This document shows, piece after piece, positions 10,900 to 41,033 of a DNA stretch of 64,000 bases. Position 1 is the stretch's first letter, and every line of letters begins with the position of its first letter. Under the pieces are notes generated by a model. That model saw nothing but the letters and a program-made list of their open reading frames with translations, ran no database searches and was not told the DNA's origin. The translations under genes and the position numbers were made by a program. The DNA is from a virus, in the IMG/VR virus record IMGVR_UViG_3300008110_000026, positions 1-64,000 of that record; one strand, written 5' to 3'.

Positions 10900-11259
10900 A
10901 TGAGTACACGATTAGAAAAAGCACTAGAGTTTTCAAACTACAGAACATCTCTAAATAATCAACAAGCACAATTACGAGCTAAGACGCAAAGTCTTTTGAG
11001 TTATAGTGTTAACGGCGGAACTTTTACTATTGATACTACATTGATCAATTTTTGTAAACTATTAGTTGATGCAAATAAGGACACAGCAATATTGCTGGAC
11101 ATCTATGATAATCCTGTTCAAGTAGAAGTTAAACCGTTTTATGAAGAAATACTTAGTCGTTATTTTGAAGTTACTAACGATTACTATGCTGAGTACGAGA
11201 AACTACGCAAAGCCCGCAAAGTACACAAGGTATTAGATCTCAATGAAAAAGGAGAATAG
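10900..11259 (+). CDS. Conserved phage protein of unknown function
   Basis: A 119-residue, mostly helical protein. The N-terminal 'TRLEKALEFSNYRTSLNNQQ' and the central 'INFCKLLVDA' with 'YYAEYEKLRKARK' near the C-terminus resemble a small conserved protein I associate with marine T4-like phages, without a known function. No ribosome site is obvious before ATG 10900, and a TGTAAATA box lies only a few bases upstream. Its end overlaps the next gene by 17 bases, so the two are translationally coupled. It marks the beginning of the carbohydrate island. Confidence 0.65.
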   Translation: MSTRLEKALEFSNYRTSLNNQQAQLRAKTQSLLSYSVNGGTFTIDTTLINFCKLLVDANKDTAILLDIYDNPVQVEVKPFYEEILSRYFEVTNDYYAEYEKLRKARKVHKVLDLNEKGE

Positions 11260-12148
11260 TCGAGGCTTTATAATGTTCGCTCACAATAACGCAGAGATTG
11301 ATTATTTTAAACTTGCGGTTATTAACAGCTTACTCATACAAAAGCATCTAGGTATAAGCAACATCACTGTAGTTACAGATCCACACAGCTATAGTTACGC
11401 TGTCGAATCGCTTGGCGAAGATTTAATTAAATCTGCGATTAACAATTTAATTGTAGTTGAAAAAGACAAAGAATTCAAATCTCAAAATATTAGAGTGTTT
11501 AAAGATACTAGTCACACCGCAAAACAATTACCATTCTATAATATAAATCGCTGTGATGCTTATGACCTAAGTCCCTACGACGAAACGATTTTACTTGATG
11601 TTGATTATCTGATACTTAGCGATACGCTTAACCAGTGTTGGGGACACAATGAAGAAATAATGATGAACTGGCGGTATCAAGATATAATGTTTGACCGCAA
11701 AGATTATACTCTAGATAGATTAAATCCTTTTGGTATTACTATGTATTGGGCAACTGTTGTTTATTTTAAAAAGTCTGCTTATGCTGAAACATTTTTTAAT
11801 TTAGTTAAGCATGTAAAAAACAATATTGCTTACTATAAAGATTTGTACAGGTGGTCTGGTAACTTATATAGAAATGACTATAGTTTCAGTATCGCAGCTC
11901 ATGTTATGAGCGGATTTGTTGATAAGGGTATTCCACAGTTACCAACAACGCTATATAAAACATTTGACACAGATGATATACATAAAGCTATAGATGAAAA
12001 AACACTAATCATGTATTTAGAAAAGCCTCGCAGCCCTGGAGACTTTATACTAACTAAATGGAGTGGCGTAGATTTGCATGTTATGAATAAATGGGCAATA
12101 AACAGAATAAGCGAGGAAATGTTAGATCATGTTAGAAACAATTTGTGA
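11243..12148 (+). CDS. Glycosyltransferase-like protein (GT-A fold, DxD type)
   Basis: A 301-residue protein. After an N-terminal 'GFIMFAHNNAEIDYFKLAVINSL' region (start of a nucleotide-sugar-binding fold) comes 'SPYDETILLDVDYLIL' near residues 111-126, where DVD fits the metal-binding DxD motif of GT-A enzymes. A similar arrangement, 'PYDETVILDTDMIF', is present in the gene at 12931, so the two are paralogues that flank an aldolase gene. It would transfer a sugar from a nucleotide donor in the cytoplasm; donor and acceptor are unknown. It overlaps its neighbours on both sides, indicating an operon. Assignment rests on the motif and overall layout. Confidence 0.65.
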   Translation: MKKENSRGFIMFAHNNAEIDYFKLAVINSLLIQKHLGISNITVVTDPHSYSYAVESLGEDLIKSAINNLIVVEKDKEFKSQNIRVFKDTSHTAKQLPFYNINRCDAYDLSPYDETILLDVDYLILSDTLNQCWGHNEEIMMNWRYQDIMFDRKDYTLDRLNPFGITMYWATVVYFKKSAYAETFFNLVKHVKNNIAYYKDLYRWSGNLYRNDYSFSIAAHVMSGFVDKGIPQLPTTLYKTFDTDDIHKAIDEKTLIMYLEKPRSPGDFILTKWSGVDLHVMNKWAINRISEEMLDHVRNNL

Positions 12149-12761
12149 TACACTAGTAGAAGCATATAAGCGCAACTGGATTACCAGTCGCGACGGCAAT
12201 GTAAGTATTCGTCACCATGACCGTAATCATTTCTATATTACGCCTAGCGGTGTGCGTAAACAAACTCTACAGCCCGATCAATTTAAGAAGATTGGATTAA
12301 TGGATACTGGTACGGAAACAATCTGCAAAATTCTACCTTATACTTCTATCTCTAGCGAGTTGCAACCAAGCGGTGAAATTCCACTGCACTTTGGGTTACA
12401 AAAAGCATTAGGACAACACAAAGACGATGTACGAGTAGTTATGCACTTGCACCCTACATATTGTGTAGCAGCTATGCACGCCGGCATTGAACTAGCTGAT
12501 TTAGTAAAATATTTTCCTGAACTAGGACGCTATACGCGAGTAGCACCTAATGTGCCAGACGTTCCGCCCATCAGTGAAGAACTAGCCACAAAGTGTCATG
12601 AGAACTTACAACTTGATAAAGATGGCAACATTGCCTACGACATTGTGGGCATTAAAGGACATGGTGTGGTAAGTATCGATACAAGTCCGTGGCGTGCCAT
12701 GGAACACATTGAACGCCTAGAACATATTTGTAAGATTGTGTTAGCTAGCGGTGTAAAGTGA
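12129..12761 (+). CDS. Class II aldolase/adducin-family protein
   Basis: A 210-residue protein, close to the usual size of L-fuculose-phosphate aldolase and L-ribulose-5-phosphate 4-epimerase. Visible family features are 'RDGNVSIR' with 'YITPSGV' near residues 21-41 (phosphate-binding loop), Glu83 in 'SGEIPLH', the zinc-binding pair His106 and His108 in 'MHLHPTYCVAAMH', and a later 'GHGVVSI' that supplies the third zinc His. These enzymes cleave or epimerise sugar phosphates by a zinc enolate. Substrate cannot be told. It starts inside the preceding glycosyltransferase gene (20-base overlap) and shares GTGA with the next small gene, so it belongs to the glycan operon. Confidence 0.85.
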   Translation: MLETICDTLVEAYKRNWITSRDGNVSIRHHDRNHFYITPSGVRKQTLQPDQFKKIGLMDTGTETICKILPYTSISSELQPSGEIPLHFGLQKALGQHKDDVRVVMHLHPTYCVAAMHAGIELADLVKYFPELGRYTRVAPNVPDVPPISEELATKCHENLQLDKDGNIAYDIVGIKGHGVVSIDTSPWRAMEHIERLEHICKIVLASGVK

Positions 12762-12934
12762 AATACAAAACCAAGTGGAACAGTTTAAGCGATTTTAAAA
12801 GTTTCTTAGAAAAAGAAAGCAAAGAAGAAATTGTCAGTTTCAATGGATACGAATTAATAACTAAGAAAGCTAGATATAGTTTAGCATTCGGACAATTAAC
12901 AGTAGAAGAAAAAAGTAAAAAGAAGAAAAAATGA
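12758..12934 (+). CDS. Small basic protein, GTG start
   Basis: A 58-residue frame using GTG, with the start and the aldolase stop sharing GTGA and its own stop sharing ATGA with the following glycosyltransferase. Such paired four-base overlaps are strong evidence for a real coupled gene. The product is rich in Lys and Glu, has 'SLSDFKSFLEKESKEEIVSFNGYEL' (in short parts: SLSDFKSFLEKESKE, EIVSFNGYEL) and ends in a Lys run. No domain is recognised. Confidence 0.65.
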   Translation: MKYKTKWNSLSDFKSFLEKESKEEIVSFNGYELITKKARYSLAFGQLTVEEKSKKKKK

Positions 12935-13794
12935 GTCGAGGTTATATTGTTATAGCACAAAACACAAAGTCTGTTGATTATCTTCAACAGGCATATGCTC
13001 TTGCGCTTAACTTAAAACTTACTCAAAGCACAGTTAATAATCTAACTGTATGTGTCGATCCGGCAACAAAAAAACTAATTACAAGTAAACATAAAAAAGT
13101 GTTTGACCATATTGTTGATATTCCGTGGAACGACGAAGCTGAGCAGTCGGACTGGAAGATTAATAACAAATGGAAATACCTGTATATGACTCCGTATGAT
13201 GAAACAGTCATACTCGATACTGATATGATATTCCCTACAGATGTCAGTCATTGGTGGGATATTTTAAGTCAGCGTGATATATGGGCTACTACTAAGGTAC
13301 GCACCTACAAAGGTGAAATAGTAAGTAGTGACTACTATAGAAAGTATTTTACACTTAATAATTTACCAAATGTATATACAGCATTCTTTTACTTTAAAAA
13401 GTGCGAGTTAGCTAGTGAATTATTTGCTATGAACGAAATCATATTTCAAAATTGGCAGAGATTCTTTTTTAAATATATGCCTAAGGGTAAGCCAGAATTT
13501 TTAAGTGGTGACGTGGCATTTGCACTGGCTATGAAATTACTGGATATTGAGCACGAATGTACTCGAGAGAATATTGACACAGTACCGACCTTTGTTCATA
13601 TGAAAAGTCATATTCAAAATGTTCCCACAAGTTTAATCGATGAAAACTGGAGCAACACTCTACCCACTTATTATAGAAGTTATAAAGATTTTCATATTGG
13701 AAATTTTGCACAGCACCTACCCTTTCACTATGTTGAGAAGGATTGGCTTACATCTAACATGATAAAACAAATGGAAAAAGATTATGGTATCTGA
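12931..13794 (+). CDS. Glycosyltransferase-like protein, paralogue of the gene at 11243
   Basis: A 287-residue protein. It begins 'SRGYIVIAQNTKSVDYLQQA', matching the start of the paralogue, and carries 'TPYDETVILDTDMIFPTD' near residues 87-104 with DTD as the presumed metal-binding DxD. Further Trp-rich motifs ('DVSHWWDIL') follow. It lacks a signal peptide or membrane span and so should be cytoplasmic. It overlaps both neighbours (ATGA before, 11 bases after). A GT-A sugar transferase is the best reading, with donor and acceptor unknown. Confidence 0.65.
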   Translation: MSRGYIVIAQNTKSVDYLQQAYALALNLKLTQSTVNNLTVCVDPATKKLITSKHKKVFDHIVDIPWNDEAEQSDWKINNKWKYLYMTPYDETVILDTDMIFPTDVSHWWDILSQRDIWATTKVRTYKGEIVSSDYYRKYFTLNNLPNVYTAFFYFKKCELASELFAMNEIIFQNWQRFFFKYMPKGKPEFLSGDVAFALAMKLLDIEHECTRENIDTVPTFVHMKSHIQNVPTSLIDENWSNTLPTYYRSYKDFHIGNFAQHLPFHYVEKDWLTSNMIKQMEKDYGI

Positions 13795-14434
13795 AGCAGA
13801 AGAACGACGCCTTAAGTTTTTAGAAGCTAAAAAGGCTGCTGGCGGATCTGCCAGAGACTTAATGAAGCAAGTCGAAGCAAGACCTTACATGGTATATTTT
13901 GACGATGCAGGTAATATTTTATGTGTTACTAAAGAAGATGTAATACCAGAACCGTCCTGGACTAACAGTCATGAATTCACATGGGAACAGGTTAGAATTC
14001 TAGAAGGCAAAAATATAAATCTATTTTATGTTAAAAAGGATCAGTTTGTAGATAATCTTTACAGTATTGAGTCTAGACCCACTGAAAAGATACATGTGAG
14101 TGCAGACAACGACTTTTTGTATTTGATTACAGAAAACGTCTCGACGCCTGATATTACATGTTCATTATCGCCAACAGAATTCACAGTTACACTAAGTGAT
14201 AATATGCTGGATAAGTATTCTAAAATTGATAAAAGTCAAATAGCAATCAATGGTAAAAAAATATTAAAGTTTTTTCTTACAGCCAAAAACGATCCGCATT
14301 TCATGCTTACTACAATTTCAGTTGCCCTGCCAAATTTGGTAGAAAAGAAGACTATTAGTTTTAGCTTGCCCGACAACTACAGCCAATGTAGTATCTATAC
14401 CTCAAAAGTGTTTGATAAATATGTGCGTACTTAA
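13784..14434 (+). CDS. Unknown protein in the glycan operon
   Basis: A 216-residue protein. The N-terminus is charged and helical ('SEAEERRLKFLEAKKAAGG') and is followed by 'YMVYFDDAGNILCVTKEDVI', then mainly beta-rich sequence. No catalytic motif, membrane segment or known family is visible. It overlaps the preceding glycosyltransferase by 11 bases and is followed after 15 bases by the next gene, so it is probably co-expressed. It may be a structural or accessory factor. Confidence 0.6.
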   Translation: MVSEAEERRLKFLEAKKAAGGSARDLMKQVEARPYMVYFDDAGNILCVTKEDVIPEPSWTNSHEFTWEQVRILEGKNINLFYVKKDQFVDNLYSIESRPTEKIHVSADNDFLYLITENVSTPDITCSLSPTEFTVTLSDNMLDKYSKIDKSQIAINGKKILKFFLTAKNDPHFMLTTISVALPNLVEKKTISFSLPDNYSQCSIYTSKVFDKYVRT

Positions 14435-14449: not shown

Positions 14450-15448
14450 ATGGCTAAAATTGATGTTACCGAACTAGACATCTTCTATATCTCTTATGAT
14501 GAGCCCAATGCAGAAGAAAACTGGGCCGACCTGCTAAACAAGGTGCCATGGGCAAAGCGTGTACACGGTGTCAAGGGATTTGATGCTGCCCATAAAGAGT
14601 GCGCCCGCCAAAGTGAAACTGAACGCTTTATTACAGTAGACGGTGATAACATCGTTATGGACGAATTTTTTGAACAGGTTCTAGATGTACCTGATACGGA
14701 CCATGACGGTAATGATATCAGTGAAAGCATCTTTAGCTGGAACGCTAAGAACTTGCTTAACGGCCTAGTATACGGCAACGGTGGACTAAAGTGCTGGCCC
14801 AAAGAATACGCACTACGAATGAATACACACGAGTCAGCTGATGACGGAGAGGGTATGGAATTTTGCTGGAAGTTAAACTATATTCAGCTTAATGATACAT
14901 TCAGCGAAGTACATCAAACAGCAAGCCCATTTCAAGCATTCCGCGCTGGCTTTAGAGAAGGTGTAAAGATGAGCTTGGATCAAGGTAAGCGTGTTCGTGC
15001 TGATGAGTTTATTCAAAAGATTTGGTGGCAGAATTACAATCGTTTACAAACATGGTGCAATATTGGCAGCGATGTAGAGAACGGACTTTGGGCGATCTAC
15101 GGAGCCCGATTAGGATGCTATAAAACTGTTTTAACCGACTGGGATACTAATCAAATTTCAGATTATGAATGGTTCAAAGACTTTTTTAACAAAGAAGTAG
15201 CACCGCAGTTTGTGGGCGATACAGTTTGCCGCTATACAAAGGTTGCATGGAACAAAGAAATGTTGTATAATACTGTATGCGATCTAGGTAAAGAGCTTAA
15301 TGAAAGCATTAACGAAATGATGCTGTTTGATCCAGACACACAGATGTGTAAGTTCTTTAAAAAGACTTTTGTAAACCCACGTCGCTGGGGTGTAATGATT
15401 CGTGAAAAGCAGATTCAAGACTTGTTGGAAAAGGGCCTGCTTCAATGA
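14450..15448 (+). CDS. Stand-alone paralogue of the ten-repeat protein, possibly glycosyltransferase-like
   Basis: A 332-residue protein. Its first part ('DIFYISYDEPNAEENWADLL', 'VHGVKGFDAAHKECAR', 'RFITVDGDNIV') matches the tenth repeat of the 1100-residue protein at 35741 ('DIVFLSYHEPTAQSAYERL', 'VQGIFDAHKAA', 'FWVVDADADI'). Its C-terminal part ('SPFQAFRAGFREGVKMSLD') matches that protein's end ('TWRSAFRECVKLTLKE'). The conserved FxxVDxDxxI resembles the DxD site of GT-A sugar transferases, which is my best guess. The gene overlaps the following SGNH gene by four bases (ATGA). Confidence 0.6.
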   Translation: MAKIDVTELDIFYISYDEPNAEENWADLLNKVPWAKRVHGVKGFDAAHKECARQSETERFITVDGDNIVMDEFFEQVLDVPDTDHDGNDISESIFSWNAKNLLNGLVYGNGGLKCWPKEYALRMNTHESADDGEGMEFCWKLNYIQLNDTFSEVHQTASPFQAFRAGFREGVKMSLDQGKRVRADEFIQKIWWQNYNRLQTWCNIGSDVENGLWAIYGARLGCYKTVLTDWDTNQISDYEWFKDFFNKEVAPQFVGDTVCRYTKVAWNKEMLYNTVCDLGKELNESINEMMLFDPDTQMCKFFKKTFVNPRRWGVMIREKQIQDLLEKGLLQ

Positions 15449-16305
15449 GCAAAAAGAGGCTAGTTGTCTACGGCTGTAGTTTTAGTAGTGGCAGCGCAAA
15501 TGCAGCTATCGGTGGTACTGAACATGACTCTGATTCAAAAACGAACTACGCAAACCTAGCAGGACAGAAACTTGGCTATGATAAAATTATTCTAAATGGC
15601 ATTGGCGGTTTTTCTAACCAGCAGATCACAAGTAGAATTATTCATGATATACAAAATGAAGTAATAGAACCAACCGATGATATATTAATACAGCAGACTT
15701 CACAGTGGCGTAAAAATATAGGTGATACTAGGTTTGATGGTGTCACAATGCACACACCTGATGTTATTGATTATAATCATGTAAGATATTCCAATGATGA
15801 TTTTTTAAGAGAGCTCGTTAATCATCAAACAGCTTTACATTGGTATACTAATGGTGCACAATATCTACCTTGGGGAGGTATAAGAGAGATTTCTTCCAAT
15901 TTAGAAACTGTGTCAATAGTTAAAAAAACAATCGCAGAATGGGATCTTTTGTTAACTAATCTATGTTTCTTAACTACTGCATTATCTGCTTTAGACATAA
16001 AGTTTCCTGGTAACAAAATATTTGTTATGCCGTTTGTGCCACTAACTAATGGTTCATACGAAAAAGCTGTTGATGGTATAAACGGCCAACAGTTATTAAG
16101 TTTATTATATAGCGGTTGGGCGAGCAGTATTGATACACATAGATTTCACATTTTAACTGTTAATCCCTTTAACTACTATCAAAATAATCCTAACTATTGG
16201 GATGAGAATAATAAGAATCATAGAAAAGTAGATCACAGCACAGAAGAATTCCATAGTAACTTTGCTGATTTATTGTACAAACAGATGAAACCATTTTATG
16301 ACTAG
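15445..16305 (+). CDS. SGNH/GDSL-like hydrolase 1
   Basis: A 286-residue protein with the block I motif 'VVYGCSFSSGS' at residues 7-17 (catalytic Ser in the GCSFS turn), a Gly-rich 'NGIGGFSNQQ' near residue 50 (oxyanion Gly/Asn region) and a C-terminal 'DHSTEEFHSNFADLL' that supplies the expected Asp/His. The family removes or transfers acyl groups from sugars and lipids. There is no signal peptide, so it acts inside the cell. It overlaps both neighbours and directly precedes a radical SAM gene, a pairing repeated in this island. Substrate unknown. Confidence 0.7.
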   Translation: MSKKRLVVYGCSFSSGSANAAIGGTEHDSDSKTNYANLAGQKLGYDKIILNGIGGFSNQQITSRIIHDIQNEVIEPTDDILIQQTSQWRKNIGDTRFDGVTMHTPDVIDYNHVRYSNDDFLRELVNHQTALHWYTNGAQYLPWGGIREISSNLETVSIVKKTIAEWDLLLTNLCFLTTALSALDIKFPGNKIFVMPFVPLTNGSYEKAVDGINGQQLLSLLYSGWASSIDTHRFHILTVNPFNYYQNNPNYWDENNKNHRKVDHSTEEFHSNFADLLYKQMKPFYD

Positions 16306-17833
16306 TCATTATGAAGCTGCCGCAGATGCAGCACAAAAAGAATTAGACACTATTAGTCCTACTATGTGTTATGCAAAGTGGGCGCAGGTATCTATGCATC
16401 TTACTAATGGAATGACGCATAGTTGTTATCATCCGCCAACGCATAAGATTCCTCTAGAGGAACTAGGAGTTAACCCCAGCGCACTTCACAATACCTTAGA
16501 GAAGAAAGAACAACGACGTGAAATGTTAGACGGTAAGAGACCAGCCGGCTGTAGTTATTGCTGGCGTATCGAAGACGTTGGCGGGCGCAGTGATCGTGTT
16601 TACCGCAGTGGTGAGTACTGGGCACAGAATGCCAAAGAAGATATTAAGGCCGCCGGCTGGCAGGGTAATATTAATCCTCGCTATGTAGAAGTAAACTTTA
16701 ACCAAGCCTGTAACTTTAAATGTAGCTATTGCAGTCCACATCTAAGCACTAGCTGGCATCAAGAGATTAAAGACCATGGCCCATATCAAATTGTGGGCGG
16801 CGAGCATAACAACACAGAAAGTTTAGCTCGCGCAGGACTAATGCCATTGCGTGTAGCACAGGATGAAAATCCATATGTAGAAGCGTTCTGGAAGTGGTGG
16901 CCCGAACTGTATAAAAGTCTAGAAGTGTTTCGTATGACTGGTGGTGAGCCATTAATGGATGTAAACACTTTTAAAGTATTGGACTATGTACACAAGAATC
17001 CTAACGCATGGTTAGAGATGAGTGTTACAAGCAACATGTGTCCGCCAAAGCCACAGCTAATGGACAAGTTTATTGAATCGCTACAGAGACTAGAACAGAT
17101 TCAAATTTGGGAAGATCCACAGAAGTTTAATCCAAACAGTGGAAACAACTGGTATGTAGCACCAGCTTGTAAGAACTTTGCTGTGTTTGTTAGCTGTGAT
17201 GGTTTTGGTAAGCAAGCCGAGTATATGCGTAACGGCATGGACTTTGAAGTACTAAAGAAGAATGTGTTGCGTGTATTACGCGAAACAGACAACACTACTA
17301 TCACATTTATTAATACATTTAATGCACTTAGCCTAACCAGCTTCCGTGAATGGCTACAGTGGATACTTGAACTTCGTGAGGAGTTTGCTAAAGATCGTCA
17401 AGGTACAAAATATGTACCTATTCCTGATAATGGCGGGCATAAGCACCCGGACTACGAAATTAAACCAAAGCAGCGTATTTGGTTTGATATTCCATTACTT
17501 CGCGCACCATTATGGCAATGCATACAAGTAATGCCCGAATGGTATCAAGACTACCTAGAAGAAGCTATCGCGTTTATGGAAATCAACCGCGCAAACGAAG
17601 AACACATAGACTATAGAGGCTTTAAGGACTTTGAAATTGATAAAGCCAAAAGAAACCTAGAATGGATGAAAGCAGGCAATAAGTTAACTGAAGAAGAAGT
17701 ACTAAAAGCGCGAGCTAATTTTTATAAGTTCTTTACGCAACATGATCAGCGTAGAGACACAGACTTTTTATCAGTGTTCCCGGAAATGGAAGACTGGTGG
17801 CAGATTTGTCAAGCAGCGGAGGCACTAGTATAA
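16298..17833 (+). CDS. Radical SAM enzyme A1 (twitch-type group)
   Basis: A 511-residue protein. The radical SAM cluster motif CxxxCxxC is at Cys138, Cys142 and Cys145 ('ACNFKCSYC'), and the SAM-binding 'TGGEP' is at residues 214-218. Before the core lie Cys24, Cys43 and a CxxC at Cys85/Cys88, a pattern shared by all five radical SAM proteins here. Its N-terminal 'HPPTHKIPLEEL', 'NPSALHNT' and 'GKRPAGCSYCWRIED' closely match the gene at 18568, so the two are recent paralogues. The enzyme should generate a 5'-deoxyadenosyl radical; substrate is unknown. It overlaps the SGNH gene upstream by eight bases. Confidence 0.88.
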   Translation: MTSHYEAAADAAQKELDTISPTMCYAKWAQVSMHLTNGMTHSCYHPPTHKIPLEELGVNPSALHNTLEKKEQRREMLDGKRPAGCSYCWRIEDVGGRSDRVYRSGEYWAQNAKEDIKAAGWQGNINPRYVEVNFNQACNFKCSYCSPHLSTSWHQEIKDHGPYQIVGGEHNNTESLARAGLMPLRVAQDENPYVEAFWKWWPELYKSLEVFRMTGGEPLMDVNTFKVLDYVHKNPNAWLEMSVTSNMCPPKPQLMDKFIESLQRLEQIQIWEDPQKFNPNSGNNWYVAPACKNFAVFVSCDGFGKQAEYMRNGMDFEVLKKNVLRVLRETDNTTITFINTFNALSLTSFREWLQWILELREEFAKDRQGTKYVPIPDNGGHKHPDYEIKPKQRIWFDIPLLRAPLWQCIQVMPEWYQDYLEEAIAFMEINRANEEHIDYRGFKDFEIDKAKRNLEWMKAGNKLTEEEVLKARANFYKFFTQHDQRRDTDFLSVFPEMEDWWQICQAAEALV

Positions 17834-17835
17834 CT

Positions 17836-18552
17836 ATGTCAAAGATAGTATTTTTAGGAGATAGTTTAACCGCAGATATTCCTTATGGTGAGAAAAAAAG
17901 CTGGGTTAAAAAATTCTGTACAGAGTATGATTTTTCTTATAAAAATCTAGCAGTAACAGCTGGTAATAATAAAACTCAAGTTATCAAACTACAACATTAT
18001 TTACTTAGTGATGAGTACGATAAAAATGATATCTTCTTTTGGGAAATAAATGCCAGCGGTAGAGTAAATGTATTATTCAATCGAAAACAAATAGTTGGCG
18101 ATAAAACATTAGAAGATGCTGTAAACACAACTCGAGAATCTGAATTTAGTGAGCACATTACTAATGTAAGTAATGTTTTTAAAAATGATAATTATGGTAT
18201 GATACTTTGCCATCCAAAGTTAAATCTATATAGAAGATTAGTCGATCCTTACGATTTACAGAATGTTGAAGAGTTTGTATTACAAGAAGTATTATCACAA
18301 ATCAAACTATTATCACAAGCAGGGCATACAGTTATTGTAGTTTTGGGTTGGCGTGATTGTTTAGCTGAAAATCACAAAGAAGTGTTCTTTCAACAATTAA
18401 ATAAGACTAGCGCACACATAATAGATGCAGAAATTTTAGAATGGTGTATTGATCAAAATTTACCCATAGACGATGATGGGCTGCATCCCGATCAATTGAG
18501 TGCTACATTATTATGGGCTAAAGCACATCTATTACCAATACTAAAAAAATAA
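17836..18552 (+). CDS. GDSL-type SGNH hydrolase 2
   Basis: The frame extends upstream to 17797, but ATG 17836, just after the radical SAM stop codon, begins the fold directly with 'SKIVFLGDSLTADIP', so 238 residues are assigned. GDSL at residues 8-11 carries the nucleophile Ser10, and the C-terminal 'DDDGLHPDQLSATLLWA' contains the catalytic Asp-x-x-His. Both ends of the triad are present, making this the clearest esterase of the six. No signal peptide is seen. Likely action is removal or transfer of an acyl group on a sugar; the exact substrate is not known. Confidence 0.8.
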   Translation: MSKIVFLGDSLTADIPYGEKKSWVKKFCTEYDFSYKNLAVTAGNNKTQVIKLQHYLLSDEYDKNDIFFWEINASGRVNVLFNRKQIVGDKTLEDAVNTTRESEFSEHITNVSNVFKNDNYGMILCHPKLNLYRRLVDPYDLQNVEEFVLQEVLSQIKLLSQAGHTVIVVLGWRDCLAENHKEVFFQQLNKTSAHIIDAEILEWCIDQNLPIDDDGLHPDQLSATLLWAKAHLLPILKK

Positions 18553-27559: not shown

Positions 27560-27715
27560 ATGACAGAGATGACCTGTAGTATGGGAAAAAATTTAGAATT
27601 TGGACAAGCCGCCCCAAGCTGGTCCAGCCCACCTTCACAAAAGAGCCACCTGGGTATGGAAGATTCACTCGAGCGAAAAAAATTTTTAAAGAGCCGATCC
27701 TATGACAAAGTCTAA
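27560..27715 (+). CDS. Possible small protein
   Basis: A 51-residue frame that starts on the base after the previous stop and ends 14 bases inside radical SAM B2. The product is Ser/Pro/Lys-rich without a domain. The tight fit between neighbours favours a coupled gene, but composition gives no further support, so it might be a leader only. Confidence 0.4.
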   Translation: MTEMTCSMGKNLEFGQAAPSWSSPPSQKSHLGMEDSLERKKFLKSRSYDKV

Positions 27716-33203: not shown

Positions 33204-33365
33204 ATGAGCGAACAGAATAAAAATGATTTACCGCAGAATTATGTGCCGCAGGATCAGGTGATTCCGCCCACACCCTTAGACAGTGATCTTACTCCTGAAG
33301 AGGAAGAAATCCTCAAGCGTAAGCTAGCAGAGCTACGTCGTCGAGACCCATTTATATACCGTTAA
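33204..33365 (+). CDS. Small acidic protein with a conserved C-terminal helix
   Basis: A 53-residue frame with a good ribosome site (CAAGGAGCAG, spacing 3-6). The first half is Asn/Gln/Pro-rich; the end 'LTPEEEEILKRKLAELRRRDP' then 'FIYR' is a charged helix. I recall similar C-terminal sequences in marine T4-like phage hypotheticals, but not a function. It is followed after one base by an SGNH gene. Confidence 0.65.
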   Translation: MSEQNKNDLPQNYVPQDQVIPPTPLDSDLTPEEEEILKRKLAELRRRDPFIYR

Positions 33366-33366
33366 T

Positions 33367-34068
33367 ATGCGATTAGTGTGCTTTGGAGATAGTTTTACTG
33401 CTAGTGCAGGTATACCCGCTGAGGATATTCTCTCGGGTCGTCCACCCAGTTGGATTGACTTACTGGCAGAGCGTTGGGGCTGCGCGGGCATTACACGGGG
33501 TATCAATGGAACGGGGCCTTTAGAGCTATTACATCAACTACAGAATTTTGGTGAATTTCTTCCGGGGGATCGTGTATTTTGTGCATTTAGCAGCGTTAAG
33601 CGTTTTTGTCTAAGTCCTTATACACCCACTATACATCATTTAAGTGAATTAGCAGATCCGCATGAACATTATAATAATAAAAATTCTGCTATGGTCACGC
33701 AGCGGGAAATAGATATGGCTATACCTAACGTTAGTCGAGCAGATATGCAGCGTATTATTCAAGCACATGGTTGGTATGAATTATTTCTAAATACTGAATA
33801 TCGTGAACGAAGTCTGCACTATGCAATATTCACGGCATTGGATGGTATAGCAGCAGCTAATCCACAAGCAGAGTTTTATGTGAAATATTGTTTTATTCAG
33901 GATTATGCTTTACATCGCGAGATGAATTTGCAGAGTAAATTCTTTAAATTATTAGAAGGTGATATGTTCAGCATCTGCGGCGAGCAAGAGGGCATGGACA
34001 TTACCAATCATTTTACTGTGGACAGCGTGGGGGATTTTGTGAATTATCTAGATGGAGCGATGCGATGA
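33367..34068 (+). CDS. SGNH-like hydrolase 6
   Basis: A 233-residue protein that opens directly with 'MRLVCFGDSFTASAG' (Ser9), a GDSx block I. 'GCAGITRGINGTGPLELLHQL' gives the Gly/Asn block and 'VFCAFSSVKRF' the next strand. A C-terminal Asp-x-x-His is not obvious ('GMDITNHFTVDSVGDF' contains a possible pair). It shares ATGA with the carbamoyltransferase gene and so is coupled to it. O-acyl removal or transfer on a sugar is the family expectation. Confidence 0.65.
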   Translation: MRLVCFGDSFTASAGIPAEDILSGRPPSWIDLLAERWGCAGITRGINGTGPLELLHQLQNFGEFLPGDRVFCAFSSVKRFCLSPYTPTIHHLSELADPHEHYNNKNSAMVTQREIDMAIPNVSRADMQRIIQAHGWYELFLNTEYRERSLHYAIFTALDGIAAANPQAEFYVKYCFIQDYALHREMNLQSKFFKLLEGDMFSICGEQEGMDITNHFTVDSVGDFVNYLDGAMR

Positions 34069-35579
34069 TAATTTGGGGTATCAGCAGCATGTATCACGAC
34101 GCTGCGCTGTCAGTATTGGATAATAATAAAATCCTATTTGCGGGTCACAGCGAGCGTTATAGTCGTGAGAAAAACGACGCATTTTTAAATCGCAAATTAA
34201 TTAATGCGGGCCTGGATGCAGGGTTTCCTGAGGTTATAGCACTACATGAAACTGCTTGGGCTAAACGATTGCGCTGTGCTTATAGCAGAGATTGGCAGGG
34301 TCTGCGTGAGCCCACACAAACTGATTGGATTCGTCGCTTTTATCCAGAACTGCGAGATGTGCCCATTGTAAACTATTGGCATCATCAAACACATGCGGCT
34401 GCGGGCGTTTTAACGTCAAAGTTTGATGACTGTGCTGTTATGGTAATTGATGCTATAGGTGAATGGGATACTGCTAGTATTTGGCACTGGCGTGATGGTA
34501 AATTGCGTAAGCTGCACAGAGTTCGCTATCCTCATAGTCTAGGACTATTTTATAGTGCTGTTACACATCGCGTGGGACTCAAGCCCAATGAAGATGAATA
34601 TATTTTGATGGGTATGGCAGCATATGGTAATCCTGATCGTGCGCGACAACTGAGCAGCGAAATTGATCGCGATTATTTTAAGAGTAGTGCTGGTCCTATG
34701 GCAGGTGCTCGTGCTGTGCTGACTCGTAAGAATCTACACAGGGGTTTAAGTCCCAATAGTTTCCCTGGCGTGGATCACTTTGACCTAGCATGGGCTGCAC
34801 AGGATCAAGTGGAACGACGAGTTATTGCATATGCAAATTATGCAAAACAATTAACAGGTTCAGACAATTTGGTATTCATGGGAGGGGTAGCCCTTAACTG
34901 TGTTGCCAACAGTAAATTGTTTGATGTATTCTCAAATGTTCACATCATGCCCAATCCGGGCGATGCGGGCAGCAGCTTGGGTGCAGCGGCTCTGCACTTA
35001 TATAACACATCAGGTAAGCATGTGGATTGGCGTGGTCCTTATTTGGGTCATAACATTCCAGGTGCATATCCTGTGAGCAGAGCCCTGCAGAGTTTGTCCG
35101 CAGGTGAAATATTTGGGATAGCAAATGGGCGAGCTGAATTTGGTCCCAGAGCATTGGGTAACCGTAGTCTATTAGCAGATCCACGAGGAGGTGACATTAA
35201 AGAACGAATGAACGCTATCAAGCAGCGTCAGCAGTTTCGCCCATTTGCACCAGTTATATTAGAAGAGCAAGCAGACAAGTATTTTGATATGCCTCAAAAG
35301 AATTTGGCTAGTCCCTATATGCAGTTTGTGGCTCGTTGTAAATATCCGCAGGCCTTCCCTGCTATTATACATGCAGACGGAACCAGCAGAGTACAAACAG
35401 TTAATCAACGTCAACACCCAGGACTGTATATGCTGTTGCGTGAGTTTTTCAAACGCACAGGCTGTCCAATGTTGGTGAATACCAGCCTTAATATCAAAGG
35501 TCAACCCATAGTGAATACTATAGAAGATGCGGCAGCATTTGCCAAACACTACGGCGTAAATGTACACACCCATGAATAG
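34065..35579 (+). CDS. Carbamoyltransferase (NodU/CmcH family)
   Basis: A 504-residue protein. The N-terminal 'WGISSMYHDAALSVLDNNKIL' and 'SERYSREKND', the central 'WHHQTHAAAGVLTSKFDDC' with 'VIDAIGEWDTASI', and the C-terminal 'GRAEFGPRALGNRSLLADPR' are the hallmark motifs of NodU-type enzymes, which have an N-terminal kinase-like domain for carbamoyl-adenylate and a C-terminal YrdC-like domain. They put a carbamoyl group on a hydroxyl of sugars or antibiotics using carbamoyl phosphate and ATP. Strong identification; acceptor unknown, but a glycan fits the context. Confidence 0.92.
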   Translation: MIIWGISSMYHDAALSVLDNNKILFAGHSERYSREKNDAFLNRKLINAGLDAGFPEVIALHETAWAKRLRCAYSRDWQGLREPTQTDWIRRFYPELRDVPIVNYWHHQTHAAAGVLTSKFDDCAVMVIDAIGEWDTASIWHWRDGKLRKLHRVRYPHSLGLFYSAVTHRVGLKPNEDEYILMGMAAYGNPDRARQLSSEIDRDYFKSSAGPMAGARAVLTRKNLHRGLSPNSFPGVDHFDLAWAAQDQVERRVIAYANYAKQLTGSDNLVFMGGVALNCVANSKLFDVFSNVHIMPNPGDAGSSLGAAALHLYNTSGKHVDWRGPYLGHNIPGAYPVSRALQSLSAGEIFGIANGRAEFGPRALGNRSLLADPRGGDIKERMNAIKQRQQFRPFAPVILEEQADKYFDMPQKNLASPYMQFVARCKYPQAFPAIIHADGTSRVQTVNQRQHPGLYMLLREFFKRTGCPMLVNTSLNIKGQPIVNTIEDAAAFAKHYGVNVHTHE

Positions 35580-35748
35580 AACGCAAAAATTAGTAGTTAA
35601 AGAACGCTGCCCTGTGTGTGCTGCTACTCAGGGCAAGCCACATGATCTTGGCTGCGTGTTTGGCAATGTTATTGCTGACTCACGATATTTAGAATCACAA
35701 TTAGACGAGCTGCTCAAGCAAGGCGGTCCCGTAGAATCTGATGTTTGA
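35572..35748 (+). CDS. Small Cys-containing protein
   Basis: A 58-residue protein from ATG 35572, which overlaps the end of the carbamoyltransferase gene (62 from ATG 35560). 'RCPVCAATQGKPHDLGCVFG' suggests a small metal-binding knuckle (CxxC then Cys, possibly with His). Overlap at both ends (8 bases with the following gene) supports coupling. Function unknown. Confidence 0.55.
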   Translation: MNRTQKLVVKERCPVCAATQGKPHDLGCVFGNVIADSRYLESQLDELLKQGGPVESDV

Positions 35749-38700
35749 TGTTTATTATCTTGGCGAAAATCCTCAGTTAAAAGCCACGCTGCCTTTTGCG
35801 CGAGCTGTGAGCAAACTAACTGACATTCAGCCCGATACTAAAATGTATTGGCTCATTGAGCCCAGCATTGAAGTCATAGACTATAGTGTGTTTGAATATC
35901 GTCCGCCTGACTATGATCAAACCTATGAGCATGTTTGGAAATGGAACAGCAGTAACTACGGCGGCATTAAATTGTTGCCTAAAACCGAGCCTGCAGGAAC
36001 TAAACAGATAAATCGTGTGGTATGTCGCAAAAGTTTTGACATATTATATACGCTCACACCAGAAGAGTATTTTGACGAACATCCGTATGCTAGCCATGTG
36101 TGGTGCGTGGATCCTGAATATAAATTAAACAATAATATTGAATGGGCTCCGGATAACTTTGAACCTAAGTTCATACATAGTTTTCATTTACGAGGCCAAT
36201 TGGAGCACAAGTACCCACAGGCCGAGGGCGGTATTAAATTATATCCGCGTAATTGGAGAACCTGTGCAGTTAAATATCATAGCTTTTTAGATGCAGGTGT
36301 TGAGTATCCTGTGTTGTATGTTAGTGATGTAGAAGATTATGCTCAGCGGGATAAGTTTGCTGATGAATATGTTTGGCTTATAGATCGCGATCACAGCATT
36401 AATCCTGCTACACTGGATTGGGTACCCAGCCCGTTTGAACACAACTATATTCATGTGTTTCGTATGCCCTATCAGCTTGGAGAAAAGTATCCACAGGCTA
36501 TGGGAGGAGTTAGACTTGTACCCCGCATTTGGCAAGACGCAGAAATAAAAATACATCCTGCATGTCCAGTAGCCGATGCAGAATATGATGTATTTTATAT
36601 TGATGAAGATCAGTTCAACAGCGATACCTACAGCGAATATGCTGCTAGAAGCAAAACAGATTGGTTCTGGATTGTGGATAGAGATCATGACTTTAACGGA
36701 AAACTATTGTATGTTCCTGCACCGCACGAACAAGAATATATTCATGTGTTTAAGATACCAGATCACCTAGACGATAGATACCCTCAGACTGTTACTGAGC
36801 CATGGGATAATCGATGCGGTGGTGTGCGTCTTGTGCATAAGAACTACGACATGACCAAGCACAAGTATCAAGCAGGTATTGTACCAGTTCGCTATGATAT
36901 TTTTTATACCAACGACATTAATAACTATGAAGCTTATGCTCGCAAAAGCAGAACTAAGATGTTTTGGTTAGTGGATCAGGAGCATGAGCTTAACGACGTG
37001 TTTAACTATGTTCCTCATCGTTATGATCAAAAGTATATTCATATATTCAAAATACCAGGTCAACTACAGCACAAATATCCTTTGAGTATTACTAATGTAA
37101 GCGACAACCGCACCGGTGGTGTTAAGTTAGTGCCTGTTAAGTACAACGAAACAGACGCAAAATACATATCAGGCTCTCCCACAGGCAACAAACAATATCC
37201 AATTCTTTATGTAGCTGACCCCACTGATTATTCTATTGTTACACAGGACTGCTGGCTTATTGATAAAGAATATAAACTAGACAGTGATGTATCATGGGTG
37301 CCACCAGACTTCCAGCGCAATATGATTCATACTTTTCATCTTGGTGGCCAGCTTAAACACAAATATCCAGAAGCAATGGGCGGCATCCGTTGGGTTCCAA
37401 AGTCATGGAGCAATGCAGAGCTGGTAATACACAGCATCAGTCCATTTAGGGATTTAGAGTTTGAACGGTTCAGCAGCGAAGAAGAAGGCCGTGTTAACAG
37501 TAAAAATAACTGGTTCTGGGTAATAGACCCAGATGTTGATGTATTAGATAATTTTAACTTTGACTTTATTCCTGAGACATGGGACGAAGGCAAAACACAT
37601 ATTTGGCAGAAGCTAAATCCAATCACAGGTAGACAATATGATTATGCCGGGGTCATGTTGTGTCCGAAAGTACCGCAGGCCAAAGGGCGTCCCAAATACA
37701 TCCGCGAGCCTGCATGTACTCAAAAGCAATATCCGGTAATTTACTTAGATCCACAACTCAGTATCGTTGAACAACTTACACACACAAACAGTACTGTAGC
37801 TAATTCCATGTATTGGGTTGTGGATCCTTTTACTAAAGTGCAGCCAGACTTTAAGTTTGACTACTATCCAACACAATGGGATCAACAAAATGTTCATGTA
37901 TTTGCTGACGAGGACGGTAATTACAGAAACATTAGACTGTATCCTAGGGGAACTTTCAACAAAGATTATTCGTTAGCTGAGATTGAAAACAACAGTTTTG
38001 AAAAGCTCAAGCAAATAAATACTATTGGTAGTCTGCGTCCCACATGGCCAGTTGTGCATCTACAAGATGTAACCAAAACCGAACTGACCAATGCACTACA
38101 GGAAGCGATGAATCGGGGAGTACCGTTCCTGTGGACCATTGACCCCGATGTGCGTGTCGAACAATGCATTTTGGATGCAGGCTACCTTCCACAAATATCA
38201 AACATTGATAAGGTTCATGTGTGGCAGAGAATAAACCCGCACAACAGTAAAACTCATAGCTACGGTGGGCTACGATTGTGGCCAACTAATATTAATGTTG
38301 ATGCGTTGACCACTGATGCAATAAGATTAAACAAGATAAAGAACTTGCAATATGTGAAGCAAACAGGCAGCACTATTAAACCCTATGACATTGTGTTCTT
38401 AAGTTACCACGAGCCTACTGCACAAAGCGCCTACGAGCGTCTTACAGCGCGATTCTCTGCAACCTGGATCAAAGATGTTCAGGGTATCTTTGATGCACAT
38501 AAAGCTGCTGCTAGCAGCGTAAACAGTAAAATGTTTTGGGTTGTAGACGCTGATGCTGACATTGCTGATGACTTTGATTTTAGTTATATTCCTGATGTTT
38601 ACGATCAAGAAGTAGTGCATGTATGGGCAAGTAGGAATCCTATTACAGGATTGGAATATGGCTACGGCGGTGTTAAACTGTTTAATACGGCGCAGGTGCG

Positions 38701-39043
38701 TACAGCAACTAGTTGGGGGTTAGACTTTACTACAGGTCTTAGCACTCGTTTTAAAGCAATGCCGCAGGTAAGTTGCGTTACGCGATTTAATACAGATTCC
38801 TATAGCACATGGCGTAGTGCTTTCCGTGAATGCGTTAAGTTAACACTAAAGGAAGATGCTGAAAGCAAGGATAGATTAGACGGCTGGTTACACCCTGTTC
38901 CCGATGCATTCTTTAGACATGATGCTAAACAGGGTGCAGAAGAAGGCCGTGCTTATGCATTAGCTAACAAAAACAATGTAGAAGCATTAGCAAAGATAAA
39001 TGATTACGAATGGTTATATGAGCGATACAATCAAACTAGATAA
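35741..39043 (+). CDS. 1100-residue protein of ten tandem repeats
   Basis: Each unit of about 85-110 residues reads: (Y/F)(D/P)(I/V)xY..., then (F/Y/C)Wx(V/I)D(P/R/K), a 'WVP...' or 'YIP...' segment, 'xIHxF' or 'xVHVW', then 'GG(I/V)(R/K)L(V/Y)P'. Units begin at about residues 1, 99, 189, 282, 385, 486, 574, 664, 769 and 882. The last unit plus the C-terminal region (882-1100) matches the stand-alone protein at 14450. The FWxxD pattern and the final 'FWVVDADADI' resemble a GT-A DxD motif, so the repeats may derive from a glycosyltransferase domain, but most units lack a full DxD. No signal peptide or membrane span. It overlaps the next gene. Confidence 0.75.
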   Translation: MFDVYYLGENPQLKATLPFARAVSKLTDIQPDTKMYWLIEPSIEVIDYSVFEYRPPDYDQTYEHVWKWNSSNYGGIKLLPKTEPAGTKQINRVVCRKSFDILYTLTPEEYFDEHPYASHVWCVDPEYKLNNNIEWAPDNFEPKFIHSFHLRGQLEHKYPQAEGGIKLYPRNWRTCAVKYHSFLDAGVEYPVLYVSDVEDYAQRDKFADEYVWLIDRDHSINPATLDWVPSPFEHNYIHVFRMPYQLGEKYPQAMGGVRLVPRIWQDAEIKIHPACPVADAEYDVFYIDEDQFNSDTYSEYAARSKTDWFWIVDRDHDFNGKLLYVPAPHEQEYIHVFKIPDHLDDRYPQTVTEPWDNRCGGVRLVHKNYDMTKHKYQAGIVPVRYDIFYTNDINNYEAYARKSRTKMFWLVDQEHELNDVFNYVPHRYDQKYIHIFKIPGQLQHKYPLSITNVSDNRTGGVKLVPVKYNETDAKYISGSPTGNKQYPILYVADPTDYSIVTQDCWLIDKEYKLDSDVSWVPPDFQRNMIHTFHLGGQLKHKYPEAMGGIRWVPKSWSNAELVIHSISPFRDLEFERFSSEEEGRVNSKNNWFWVIDPDVDVLDNFNFDFIPETWDEGKTHIWQKLNPITGRQYDYAGVMLCPKVPQAKGRPKYIREPACTQKQYPVIYLDPQLSIVEQLTHTNSTVANSMYWVVDPFTKVQPDFKFDYYPTQWDQQNVHVFADEDGNYRNIRLYPRGTFNKDYSLAEIENNSFEKLKQINTIGSLRPTWPVVHLQDVTKTELTNALQEAMNRGVPFLWTIDPDVRVEQCILDAGYLPQISNIDKVHVWQRINPHNSKTHSYGGLRLWPTNINVDALTTDAIRLNKIKNLQYVKQTGSTIKPYDIVFLSYHEPTAQSAYERLTARFSATWIKDVQGIFDAHKAAASSVNSKMFWVVDADADIADDFDFSYIPDVYDQEVVHVWASRNPITGLEYGYGGVKLFNTAQVRTATSWGLDFTTGLSTRFKAMPQVSCVTRFNTDSYSTWRSAFRECVKLTLKEDAESKDRLDGWLHPVPDAFFRHDAKQGAEEGRAYALANKNNVEALAKINDYEWLYERYNQTR

Positions 39044-39695
39044 TTGGCAGGCTGTATCTGATTTTGTTGATGCACATATAAGTATCAAGCCCAGTTACTT
39101 CGAGCGAGCTGTGCAGGGTAACTATCCTAAAGACGCATTTAGCAAAGGGCAGTTAGCCAGCAAAGCATGGTTGTTATCTAAATTAGATAGTAGCATAACA
39201 AATCATTTGCCATTTGATTCAGTTATCGCAGTTCTAGGCTGTTGGATTGGTACATTAGTTGAGCCTTTATTGGATGCAACAATGGTATCTAGAGTGTACG
39301 GCATTGATCTAGATCCTAGAGCAATTGAATTGGCAGAGAAGTTTAATCAGCATCTAGTACAGGATGATTGGAGGTTCAAAGGTGTAGTAGCTGATGCTTC
39401 TACCTTAACAACATCCAATATGGAATTTGAAACTGCTGGCGAACTAATAAGGGTTACACCTAAAGTAGTAATTAATACCAGTTGCGAGCATATGGACACT
39501 CATTGGTTTGAAACAGCTAATTCAGATCAATTGATTATTATGCAAACCAATGACAGTGAAGGGTACGACGGTCATATCAACATTTGTAAGGACCTAGCTG
39601 ACCTCAATGCTAAATATCCTATGTCCACCATACTTTATCAAGGACAACTAACTATCCCTGCATACACAAGATTTATGCAGATTGGATACAAATAA
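39018..39695 (+). CDS. SAM-dependent methyltransferase
   Basis: A 225-residue protein from ATG 39018 (an earlier ATG at 39000 lies further within the repeat gene). 'DSVIAVLGCWIGTLVEPLLD' is motif I and 'VYGIDLDPRAIELAEKFNQH' the acidic motif II of class I methyltransferases; 'VVINTSCEHM' lies where motif IV is expected. It starts inside the repeat gene and is 9 bases before radical SAM A3. Acceptor unknown; a second methyltransferase of the island. Confidence 0.75.
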   Translation: MSDTIKLDNWQAVSDFVDAHISIKPSYFERAVQGNYPKDAFSKGQLASKAWLLSKLDSSITNHLPFDSVIAVLGCWIGTLVEPLLDATMVSRVYGIDLDPRAIELAEKFNQHLVQDDWRFKGVVADASTLTTSNMEFETAGELIRVTPKVVINTSCEHMDTHWFETANSDQLIIMQTNDSEGYDGHINICKDLADLNAKYPMSTILYQGQLTIPAYTRFMQIGYK

Positions 39696-39704
39696 GAGAA
39701 CACA

Positions 39705-41033
39705 ATGACTTTTAAGCCACCACACAGTTTCCCAATTAACACAGCAACATCATGCCAATTCAAGTGGACATGGAGCACAGTATTTCTATCAGTGGGCACA
39801 AGTTCCAGCTGTCATCGTTGTAAAGGTTGGGACGTGAGTGAGATTATGGACGACTTCCATAACCACCCTGGTAAGCTAGAAGATAGAAAGCAAATGCTCG
39901 ACGGTAAGTGGCCTGGAAATGGTTGTGAGTATTGTCGTGATATTGAAGTAGCAGGCGGCACCAGCGAACGAACTGCATATATTAATGATATGCAAGTAAG
40001 TCCACCAGAGCTTGACGTTGATCCTACTGCTGTAAAAGTCACACCAAGAATCTTAGAAGTTTATTTCAACAATGTCTGTAACCAAAAGTGCGTTTACTGT
40101 TCTCCTTTCTTTAGCAGTCTAATTCAAAAGGAAGTTGAGAAGTTTGGACCTTTAGAAAACGAATATGATCTAATGGGCTTTAAGGAAAAACCAGGCTACG
40201 AACAACGCAAAGATAAGTTTTGGATATGGATGGACAAGAATTCACATCACTTGTTACAGTTTCAGATCCTAGGTGGCGAACCTTTGTATCAAGATGAGTT
40301 TGAAGAATGCTTAGAGTTCTTTGAACAGCGTAGTCATCCTAATTTAAATTGGAAGATCTTTAGTAACCTAAAACACCGGCATGATCTCTTTAAAAAGAAG
40401 ATTGATCGTATTTCTGCTTTGATCAGAGAAGGCAAGCTCAAGAGCTTTGAAATTGTTTGCAGTATGGATTGCTGGGGACCACAAGCAGAATATAGCCGCT
40501 ATGGTGTTAAGCTAGACGAGTGGGAGCAGAACTTCCAGTACCTAGTTGATAATCATCTAGTAGATATCAGCGTACACTCAACTATTACCCCAGTGTCACT
40601 ACCAACTATGGCAGAGTTCTATAGAAAGATTATGGCATGGAACACATATCGCATTGAGAAGCAGGGTGCTATGGGCTTAGTTGATACACAGATTAAAGTT
40701 GTTAACTTTGGTTGGAATATTGTAGTAACACCAACGCATATGGATCCGTGTATGCTAGGCGAATATGCTGCACCATTCTTTGACGAACTGCTATCAGTTA
40801 TTCCCGACGACGATAACCGTAAGCTCTATCTAAAGGGCTTTAAGACCAAAGTAGTTAAGAGTCCTATTGATCCTATTCGTTTGCATCGTTTAGCAAACTA
40901 TCTAGATAAGATTGACTTTAGAAGAAAAACAAATTGGCGTTCATTGTATCCTTGGCTTGAGGAAATTGTTAATTCATATATTCCAAACGAGCCTGTTCCT
41001 GAAGTAAACGCTACACTAATCAAAAACATCTAA
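39705..41033 (+). CDS. Radical SAM enzyme A3 (twitch-type group)
   Basis: A 442-residue protein. Cluster Cys are 125, 129 and 132 ('VCNQKCVYC') and 'LGGEPLY' is at 189-195. N-terminal extra Cys are 17, 36 (39 also) and a CxxC at 74/77 in 'GNGCEYCRDIE', as in A1 and A2 ('GxxCxYCxxIE'). The N-terminal 'TVFLSVGTSSSCHRC' corresponds to 'MHLTNGMTHSCYHPP' of A1. It is the last + strand gene and ends just before the shared terminator. Confidence 0.87.
   Translation: MTFKPPHSFPINTATSCQFKWTWSTVFLSVGTSSSCHRCKGWDVSEIMDDFHNHPGKLEDRKQMLDGKWPGNGCEYCRDIEVAGGTSERTAYINDMQVSPPELDVDPTAVKVTPRILEVYFNNVCNQKCVYCSPFFSSLIQKEVEKFGPLENEYDLMGFKEKPGYEQRKDKFWIWMDKNSHHLLQFQILGGEPLYQDEFEECLEFFEQRSHPNLNWKIFSNLKHRHDLFKKKIDRISALIREGKLKSFEIVCSMDCWGPQAEYSRYGVKLDEWEQNFQYLVDNHLVDISVHSTITPVSLPTMAEFYRKIMAWNTYRIEKQGAMGLVDTQIKVVNFGWNIVVTPTHMDPCMLGEYAAPFFDELLSVIPDDDNRKLYLKGFKTKVVKSPIDPIRLHRLANYLDKIDFRRKTNWRSLYPWLEEIVNSYIPNEPVPEVNATLIKNI

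Follow-up and report, generated by a model that had tools for sequence, protein, structure and literature searches.

A conserved, sugar-linked gene island with an array of twitch-domain radical SAM enzymes beside the tail-fibre genes of an uncultured aquatic phage

We analyzed bases 1–64000 (hereafter the window) of the 92,388-bp virus record IMGVR_UViG_3300008110_000026, which comes from an uncultured aquatic bacterial virus and in which about 30 packed genes, all on the + strand (11243–41033), form an island adjoining the tail-fibre genes. An earlier note, made from the sequence alone, had described some 30 close-packed + strand genes here, and both coordinates and layout were borne out: from 11243 on, 22 of 26 gene junctions overlap or leave a gap of at most 20 bp. 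The island is unbroken and lies on the same strand as the tail-fibre genes, with replication-type genes on the opposite strand. Its backbone consists of glycosyltransferase-like proteins and of radical S-adenosylmethionine (SAM) proteins in which a twitch domain precedes the catalytic core (N-twitch), as follows.

10900–11259, + strand: t109, a conserved cassette protein of 119 amino acids (aa), followed by GT8 in 28/28 cases
11243–12148, + strand: GT8-type glycosyltransferase 1 (family profile matches glycogenin, E 2.4e-6)
12931–13794, + strand: GT8-type glycosyltransferase 2, of one family with 11243 (phrog_1903)
13784–14434, + strand: t137, a conserved cassette protein of 216 aa, followed by GTr in 31/31 cases
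14450–15448, + strand: GTr, a divergent GT-A-like protein (AlphaFold pLDDT 85.9)
16298–17833, + strand: N-twitch radical SAM protein 1, the conserved first member of the array (NF033640, 322 bits)
18568–20250, + strand: N-twitch radical SAM protein 2 (NF033640, 311.5 bits)
22616–24025, + strand: N-twitch radical SAM protein 3 (NF033640, 311.3 bits; N-terminal PF13186 SPASM)
25441–26574, + strand: GTB-family protein 1, a putative GT-B transferase of one family with 28963
27702–28958, + strand: N-twitch radical SAM protein 4 (NF033640, 335.7 bits; N-terminal PF13186 SPASM)
28963–30516, + strand: GTB-family protein 2, a putative GT-B transferase (AlphaFold pLDDT 63.7, low confidence; PDB matches glycogen synthase and OtsA)
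35741–39043, + strand: 1100-aa degenerate-repeat protein with a terminal GTr domain (hhalign to GTr 99.6%, residues 879–1098)
39000–39695, + strand: methyltransferase, partner of GTr (weak PF13649; methyltransferase in 39/80 loci; the GTr-methyltransferase order also occurs in Bdellovibrionota)
39705–41033, + strand: N-twitch radical SAM protein 5 (NF033640, 209.5 bits)

All five proteins previously called as radical SAM enzymes score above the curated cut-off of NCBIfam NF033640 (209.5–335.7 bits against 170), and inspection by eye places the CX3CX2C motif after an N-terminal four-Cys domain in each (5/5). Among full-length homologues, CX3CX2C is kept in 288/288 and at least four N-terminal Cys in 256/288. 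The nearest relative of a paralogue lies in the same locus in 0 of 283 cases, which rules out recent tandem duplication, and median identity is 30% inside a locus versus 74% outside. That paralogues of one locus are never nearest relatives is expected if separate functions have been kept; their age, together with the core Cys kept in all 288, indicates an array that is maintained and not decaying. When the profile of the N-terminal domain was compared with the PDB, BtrN was matched (E 2.8e-5) along the length of its auxiliary four-Cys twitch domain with all four Cys aligned, and nothing else fell below E 0.2; the core is no closer to BtrN than to other radical SAM enzymes. BtrN, the twitch-domain DOIA dehydrogenase of butirosin synthesis, oxidizes an aminocyclitol alcohol, and its auxiliary cluster likely takes the second electron (PMC9012708). 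With their twitch domain at the N-terminus, the island's proteins may work like BtrN, yet we do not file them as BtrN. Two complete N-twitch matches also occur in one 1037-aa open frame elsewhere (G009:C1:103882-106740, partly L064), a possible fused pair, and genes for a PP-loop ATPase (QueC/NAD-synthase-like) and a B12-binding-type radical SAM protein recur beside N-twitch genes in phages (L096-L099) and in Bdellovibrionota (L364, L369).

The glycosyltransferase-like proteins reported earlier resolve into GT8-type proteins (11243 and 12931), proteins with a GT-A-like predicted fold (14450 and 35741) and proteins with a GT-B-like, low-confidence predicted fold (25441 and 28963). The GT8 assignment comes from the family profile, which matches the solved GT8 glycogenin; Pfam PF01501 itself does not match the window proteins. 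The best PDB matches of the GTr model are mostly GT-A transferases, at a template-modelling (TM) score of about 0.3, and D64 and D66 of its D-x-D motif are invariant. Direct kinship between GTr and GT8 was unsupported. Within the 35741 protein, W-x-V/I-D and HV(F/W) motifs recur at the protein level only, tandem DNA repeats being absent from the gene, and relatives of this repeat protein reach 1942 aa (L055:13094-18922). A PDB profile search with t137 gave no match. None of the window glycosyltransferases has a membrane segment, and their families have very few.

This arrangement is conserved across phages. A scan of IMG/VR with radical SAM protein 1 returned 540 stretches, from which 80 loci were kept; they contain 315 N-twitch radical SAM proteins, as many as eight in a row, alongside GTr (49 loci), GTB (48), methyltransferase (39), GT8 (31) and carbamoyltransferase (26). 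Because these loci had been picked by their radical SAM gene, we repeated the linkage count on loci of at least 12 kb with other anchors, the DNA polymerase gene of the same phage serving as anchor for the control loci. Of the t109-anchored loci 57/73, and of the GTr-anchored loci 47/65, had an N-twitch radical SAM gene in the vicinity, versus 2/38 control loci (Fisher P 3e-14 and 6e-12, values that are indicative because the anchor sets have contigs in common). GT8 was present in 73/73 t109-anchored loci, while GT8, GTr, t109 and t137 were each found in 0/38 control loci; with GT8 grouped at 60% identity, a radical SAM gene fell within the flanks examined in 14 of 18 groups. The cassette, in the order t109-GT8-GT8-t137-GTr, follows the tail fibres in the majority of some 140 loci from aquatic phages, and this order holds although t137 pairwise identity falls to 16%. 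Radical SAM protein 1 is the best match of the first radical SAM protein after t137-GTr in 82 of 90 scored cases. A tblastn search of 50,697 phage records with radical SAM protein 1, GTr, GT8 1 and t109 gave no close isolate, and the radical SAM matches there were distant ones, from Vibrio phages and from a single short marine record. Cultured Vibrio phage K566 encodes two NF033640 proteins above cut-off and three relatives, whose genes are interspersed with those for GT8 and GT4-like proteins; Vibrio phages KVP40 and nt-1 carry more distant radical SAM relatives.

The trio of GTr, methyltransferase and radical SAM protein that closes the island (35741–41033) recurs in Bdellovibrionota, a phylum chosen around a Bacteriovoracaceae metagenome-assembled genome (MAG) and sampled as 144 genomes. 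NF033640 scored above cut-off in 40/144 genomes and GTr was found in 9/144, all nine among the 40 (P 5e-6, relatedness of genomes ignored). GTr lies about 4 kb or less from a radical SAM gene in 7 of these 9 genomes, in islands that also hold UDP-sugar dehydrogenase, GT2 and methyltransferase. One such island (L364/L365), read by eye, runs from GTr through radical SAM proteins and methyltransferase to UDP-sugar dehydrogenase, GTB, GT2 and then ribosomal protein genes, which makes it chromosomal. Hence the neighbourhood comparison across phage genomes proposed in the earlier note revealed conserved linkage with glycosyltransferases in diverse phages; homologues that were scattered, unlinked and unrelated to sugars, the result named there as adverse, are not what we found, since linkage extends over diverse phages, a cultured Vibrio phage and bacterial chromosomes. 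The island is real, conserved and sugar-linked, and it is kin to phage host-recognition glycan clusters, being both adjacent to tail-fibre genes and rich in glycosyltransferases as a host recognition cluster is.

Between and around these genes lie enzymes that would make and decorate sugars.

12129–12761, + strand: class II aldolase/adducin family enzyme (PF00596, E 9e-28)
15445–16305, + strand: SGNH-like protein 1 (homologues in common with the 17797 family; GCS block by eye)
17797–18552, + strand: SGNH-like protein 2 (by eye, a GDSL block and a DGLHP motif; marginal Pfam match, E 0.11)
20237–20992, + strand: sulfotransferase-like protein, motif only (PRVGT loop by eye; no Pfam or PHROG match)
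20989–21735, + strand: NeuB-like sugar-acid synthase (PF03102, E 3.9e-12)
21728–21949, + strand: Smr-like small protein (PF01713, E 0.023, below cut-off)
21954–22619, + strand: SAM-dependent methyltransferase (PF08241 above cut-off, other profiles below)
24115–25437, + strand: UDP-sugar dehydrogenase (phrog_9148, E 5e-95; PF00984/PF03721)
30518–31351, + strand: SGNH-like protein 3 (DUF6071; PF19547, E 1.5e-6)
31327–32157, + strand: SGNH-like protein 4, assigned by eye from a GDSW block (motif only; profiles gave no match)
32123–32914, + strand: SGNH-like protein 5, assigned by eye from a GDSF block (motif only; profiles gave no match)
33204–33365, + strand: unannotated 53-aa mini-protein ending RRRDPFIYR, of a carbamoyltransferase-linked family (small relatives beside carbamoyltransferase)
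33367–34068, + strand: SGNH-like protein 6 (PF13472, E 2e-4, below cut-off)
34065–35579, + strand: NodU-type O-carbamoyltransferase (PF16861, E 1.4e-55; PF02543, E 4e-41; both domains above cut-off)

Profile matches uphold the class II aldolase, the NeuB-like protein, the UDP-sugar dehydrogenase and the NodU carbamoyltransferase of the earlier note, and support its two methyltransferases with weak scores. Its six SGNH hydrolases fared unevenly: 30518 and 33367 have Pfam support (the latter below cut-off), 17797 is marginal and 15445 is connected through homologues, leaving 31327 and 32123 with the G-D-S motif alone. The sulfotransferase-like call at 20237 found no profile match and the Smr call at 21728 only the sub-threshold one.

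The earlier note had passed over the mini-protein, as well as the flanking fibre-like and t109 genes of the conserved block and a radical SAM gene at 55591. The mini-protein had no match in Pfam, and small relatives of it were present in 18 of 26 radical SAM loci with carbamoyltransferase and in 0 of the 54 that lack it (P 4e-12). When a DNA pattern was scanned for without regard to radical SAM genes, 39 further stretches came up, all small open reading frames (ORFs), some of them repeating contigs of the first set; carbamoyltransferase was in the stretch examined for 32 of the 39, mostly adjoining the mini-protein gene. The family ends in [RK]xDPFIY[DEKPR]. In Streptomyces sp. Mg1 a mini-protein of this type precedes carbamoyltransferase and DUF6071, and S. 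meliloti has a longer relative ending PFIYTLF. NodU/SxtI-type carbamoyltransferase systems thus resemble this part of the island in setting SGNH protein, PF(I/M)Y-ending small protein and carbamoyltransferase side by side, but the S. meliloti small protein has a membrane segment, whereas the phage mini-protein has neither a membrane segment nor a Pfam family. We liken the mini-protein to a bacterial family that we take to be DUF5989, on which a literature search found no paper. It may be an accessory of the carbamoylation step, and its family offers a small separate lead on how NodU-type carbamoyltransferases are organized.

The gene content and its linkage make it very probable that the island is a glycan module. 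The earlier note had proposed a glycan pathway acting on virion fibres or the host surface; the conserved sugar-linked neighbourhood supports the pathway, while the substrates, reaction type, step order and acceptor given here are what we infer. In our model, a soluble cytoplasmic module for glycan assembly and tailoring would occupy the host-recognition region of an uncultured tailed phage. Enzymes acting on nucleoside diphosphate (NDP) sugars (aldolase, NeuB-like protein, UDP-sugar dehydrogenase) would supply unusual sugars, which the two GT8 enzymes, GTr and the GTB proteins would assemble and which the SGNH enzymes, the carbamoyltransferase with its mini-protein and the methyltransferases would decorate. 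The radical SAM proteins would, somewhat more probably than not, act on sugars; the likeliest step would be abstraction of a carbinol hydrogen, with the second electron passing to the N-terminal auxiliary cluster in a BtrN-like two-electron oxidation (or an epimerization, or a dehydration), and each paralogue may catalyze a different step. The product would most likely be attached to a virion fibre, the first candidate being the following protein.

9467–10513, + strand: Ser/Thr-rich fibre-like protein, favoured candidate acceptor, upstream of the cassette (Ser+Thr fraction 0.273)

Among neighbouring proteins the median Ser+Thr fraction is 0.114 and the 95th percentile 0.189; the family of this protein has a median of 0.252 (26 members). 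Nothing in the island was recognizable as a flippase, polymerase, ligase or lipid-carrier transferase; membrane-free glycosyltransferases, the missing flippase and polymerase, and the Ser/Thr-rich fibre neighbour together favour a cytoplasmic protein acceptor, with the virion fibre first. Between virion and host as acceptor we nevertheless see the balance as even, and the full reading of a cytoplasmic glycan module with sugar-acting radical SAM proteins and a virion-fibre product is one that we hold tentatively, at slightly below an even chance.

Several observations weigh against that reading. The likeness to BtrN concerns the auxiliary domain only, and the domain order is opposite, N-terminal here and C-terminal to the core in BtrN. 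Fold matches of GTr and GTB have low TM-scores (about 0.3). A profile comparison of t137 with a tail fibre gave no match that would tie it to fibre proteins, and counts of the T4-type late promoter sequences TATAAATA and CTAAATA were not above chance. Some phages have the cassette with no radical SAM gene in the stretch examined (L205, L210, L234, L239). In the Bacteriovoracaceae MAG around which the phylum was chosen, N-twitch radical SAM genes have housekeeping genes as neighbours and no evident sugar gene, indicating that glycans are not the only setting of the family, and where the enzyme set is on a bacterial chromosome a virion cannot be the acceptor.

A strong rival, which we consider a real possibility at roughly a third of the weight of belief, is that the enzymes remodel the host surface, altering the O-antigen or capsule of the infected cell and thereby blocking rival phages. 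Surface change has been proposed for cyanophages and pelagimyophages and is preferred in those parts of the literature that treat similar clusters (PMC7029224, PMC7824862); in cultured HTVC008M and Synechococcus phage Bellamy, genes for carbamoyltransferase, methyltransferase, UDP-glucose dehydrogenase and glycosyltransferase form clusters, related islands lie on bacterial chromosomes, and the window phage itself encodes an outer-membrane-barrel-like protein (41096). The lack of a recognizable flippase, polymerase, ligase or lipid-carrier transferase and of membrane segments in the window glycosyltransferases speaks against it, as does the position of the conserved block, which adjoins tail-fibre genes and includes t109 and t137. 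The virion-fibre reading must also be set against a protein target for the radical SAM enzymes. Many characterized SPASM/twitch radical SAM enzymes act on peptides. PqqE and SuiB are examples (PMC9012708), and 2-oxoglutarate-oxygenase-like genes recur in the clusters, so fibre side chains or a peptide might be modified here, with the sugar genes as mere neighbours in a variable region; the bacterial genome with radical SAM but without sugar genes fits this view. We think it improbable: the glycosyltransferase linkage recurs in three contexts, the N-terminal domain is BtrN-like, and with a median gap of −4 bp beside the radical SAM genes the only recurrent precursor-like ORFs are the carbamoyltransferase-linked mini-protein and Smr. 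The earlier note had seen neither a precursor of a ribosomally synthesized and post-translationally modified peptide (RiPP) nor a transporter, and this holds: no recurrent RiPP-type precursor was found beside the radical SAM genes, no transporter was recognized, and the RiPP reading was dropped for want of such a short gene.

Less probable still is a small diffusible product, akin to a secondary metabolite and not bound to a polymer. Cyanobacterial sxt clusters do combine carbamoyltransferase, GDSL/SGNH and small hypothetical proteins (PMC2684587), and a secondary metabolite has been proposed for a cyanophage cluster (PMC7824862), but no nonribosomal peptide synthetase, polyketide synthase or exporter was recognized, and six glycosyltransferase-like proteins with a glycogenin-type GT8 point to a glycan.

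A glycan module of this kind has known relatives. The part of PMC7029224 that deals with pelagimyophage and cyanomyophage host recognition clusters describes large variable regions by the tail fibres with many glycosyltransferases, including GT8, and with radical SAM cassettes gained between relatives, to which that part assigns no role. The earlier note's claim of an undescribed system is tempered by these regions; relative to that description, what is new here is the fixed t109-GT8-GT8-t137-GTr cassette, the identity of the radical SAM proteins as N-twitch NF033640 arrays, and the chromosomal counterpart. The polysaccharide clusters of Bellamy, HTVC008M and S-SSM6a share carbamoyltransferase, methyltransferase, UDP-glucose dehydrogenase, glycosyltransferases and short-chain dehydrogenase/reductase epimerases with the island, but the tblastn search found no t109, GTr or close N-twitch radical SAM protein among the 50,697 phage records. 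Mycobacteriophage virion glycosylation, as cited in PMC12619734, likewise has phage-coded glycosyltransferases and a proposed virion acceptor; by comparison with that citation, the island's enzyme set is far larger, includes radical SAM proteins and is known from genes alone. NF033640 (twitch-domain radical SAM) is a model name without a function, to which glycosyltransferase linkage is added here. Marine phages have repeatedly been noted to carry radical SAM genes as auxiliary genes without explanation, and one T4-like genome has 12 (PMC5332604); the constant association of these genes with a glycosyltransferase cassette beside the tail fibres, seen on bacterial chromosomes too, supplies a role that can be tested. 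Less likely than not, but a real possibility, is that uncultured aquatic phages and Bdellovibrionota share an undescribed pathway in which GTr, its partner methyltransferase and arrays of permuted BtrN-type radical SAM proteins make a radical-modified glycan, which in phages would sit on the tail fibres and there alter or mask host recognition. If this were true, phages would make radical-modified glycans, GTr would represent a new glycosyltransferase family, and NF033640 would be opened to biochemistry.

Elsewhere in the window, the product of the first gene is similar to jumbo-myovirus virion structural proteins, and the minus-strand half holds replication-type genes. On the question of a T4-like backbone, this 92-kb record shows one minus-strand gene with a 5'-3' exonuclease match and a weak T4 RNase H C-terminal match, besides the jumbo-phage virion protein relatives. 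Inside the island, a 1.1-kb run of small ORFs includes a small DUF2061 membrane protein (27359–27559, + strand; PF09834 above cut-off), and at the island's end 41096–41674 (− strand) encodes the outer-membrane beta-barrel-like protein, which has a signal-peptide-like start and a Porin_4 match below cut-off. Further sugar-type genes lie outside the island at 58551–60613 (− strand) and at 69289–71494 of the record, and comprise an NAD-dependent epimerase (PF01370, E 5.6e-56), a weak GT1 match, an SGNH-like protein (by eye) and a Sulfotransfer_2-like protein. A sixth radical SAM gene, also outside the island (55591–57948, − strand), is QueE-like by eye with weak Pfam matches, and its position near GTP cyclohydrolase I (PF01227, E 1.8e-62) suggests a 7-deazaguanine pathway.

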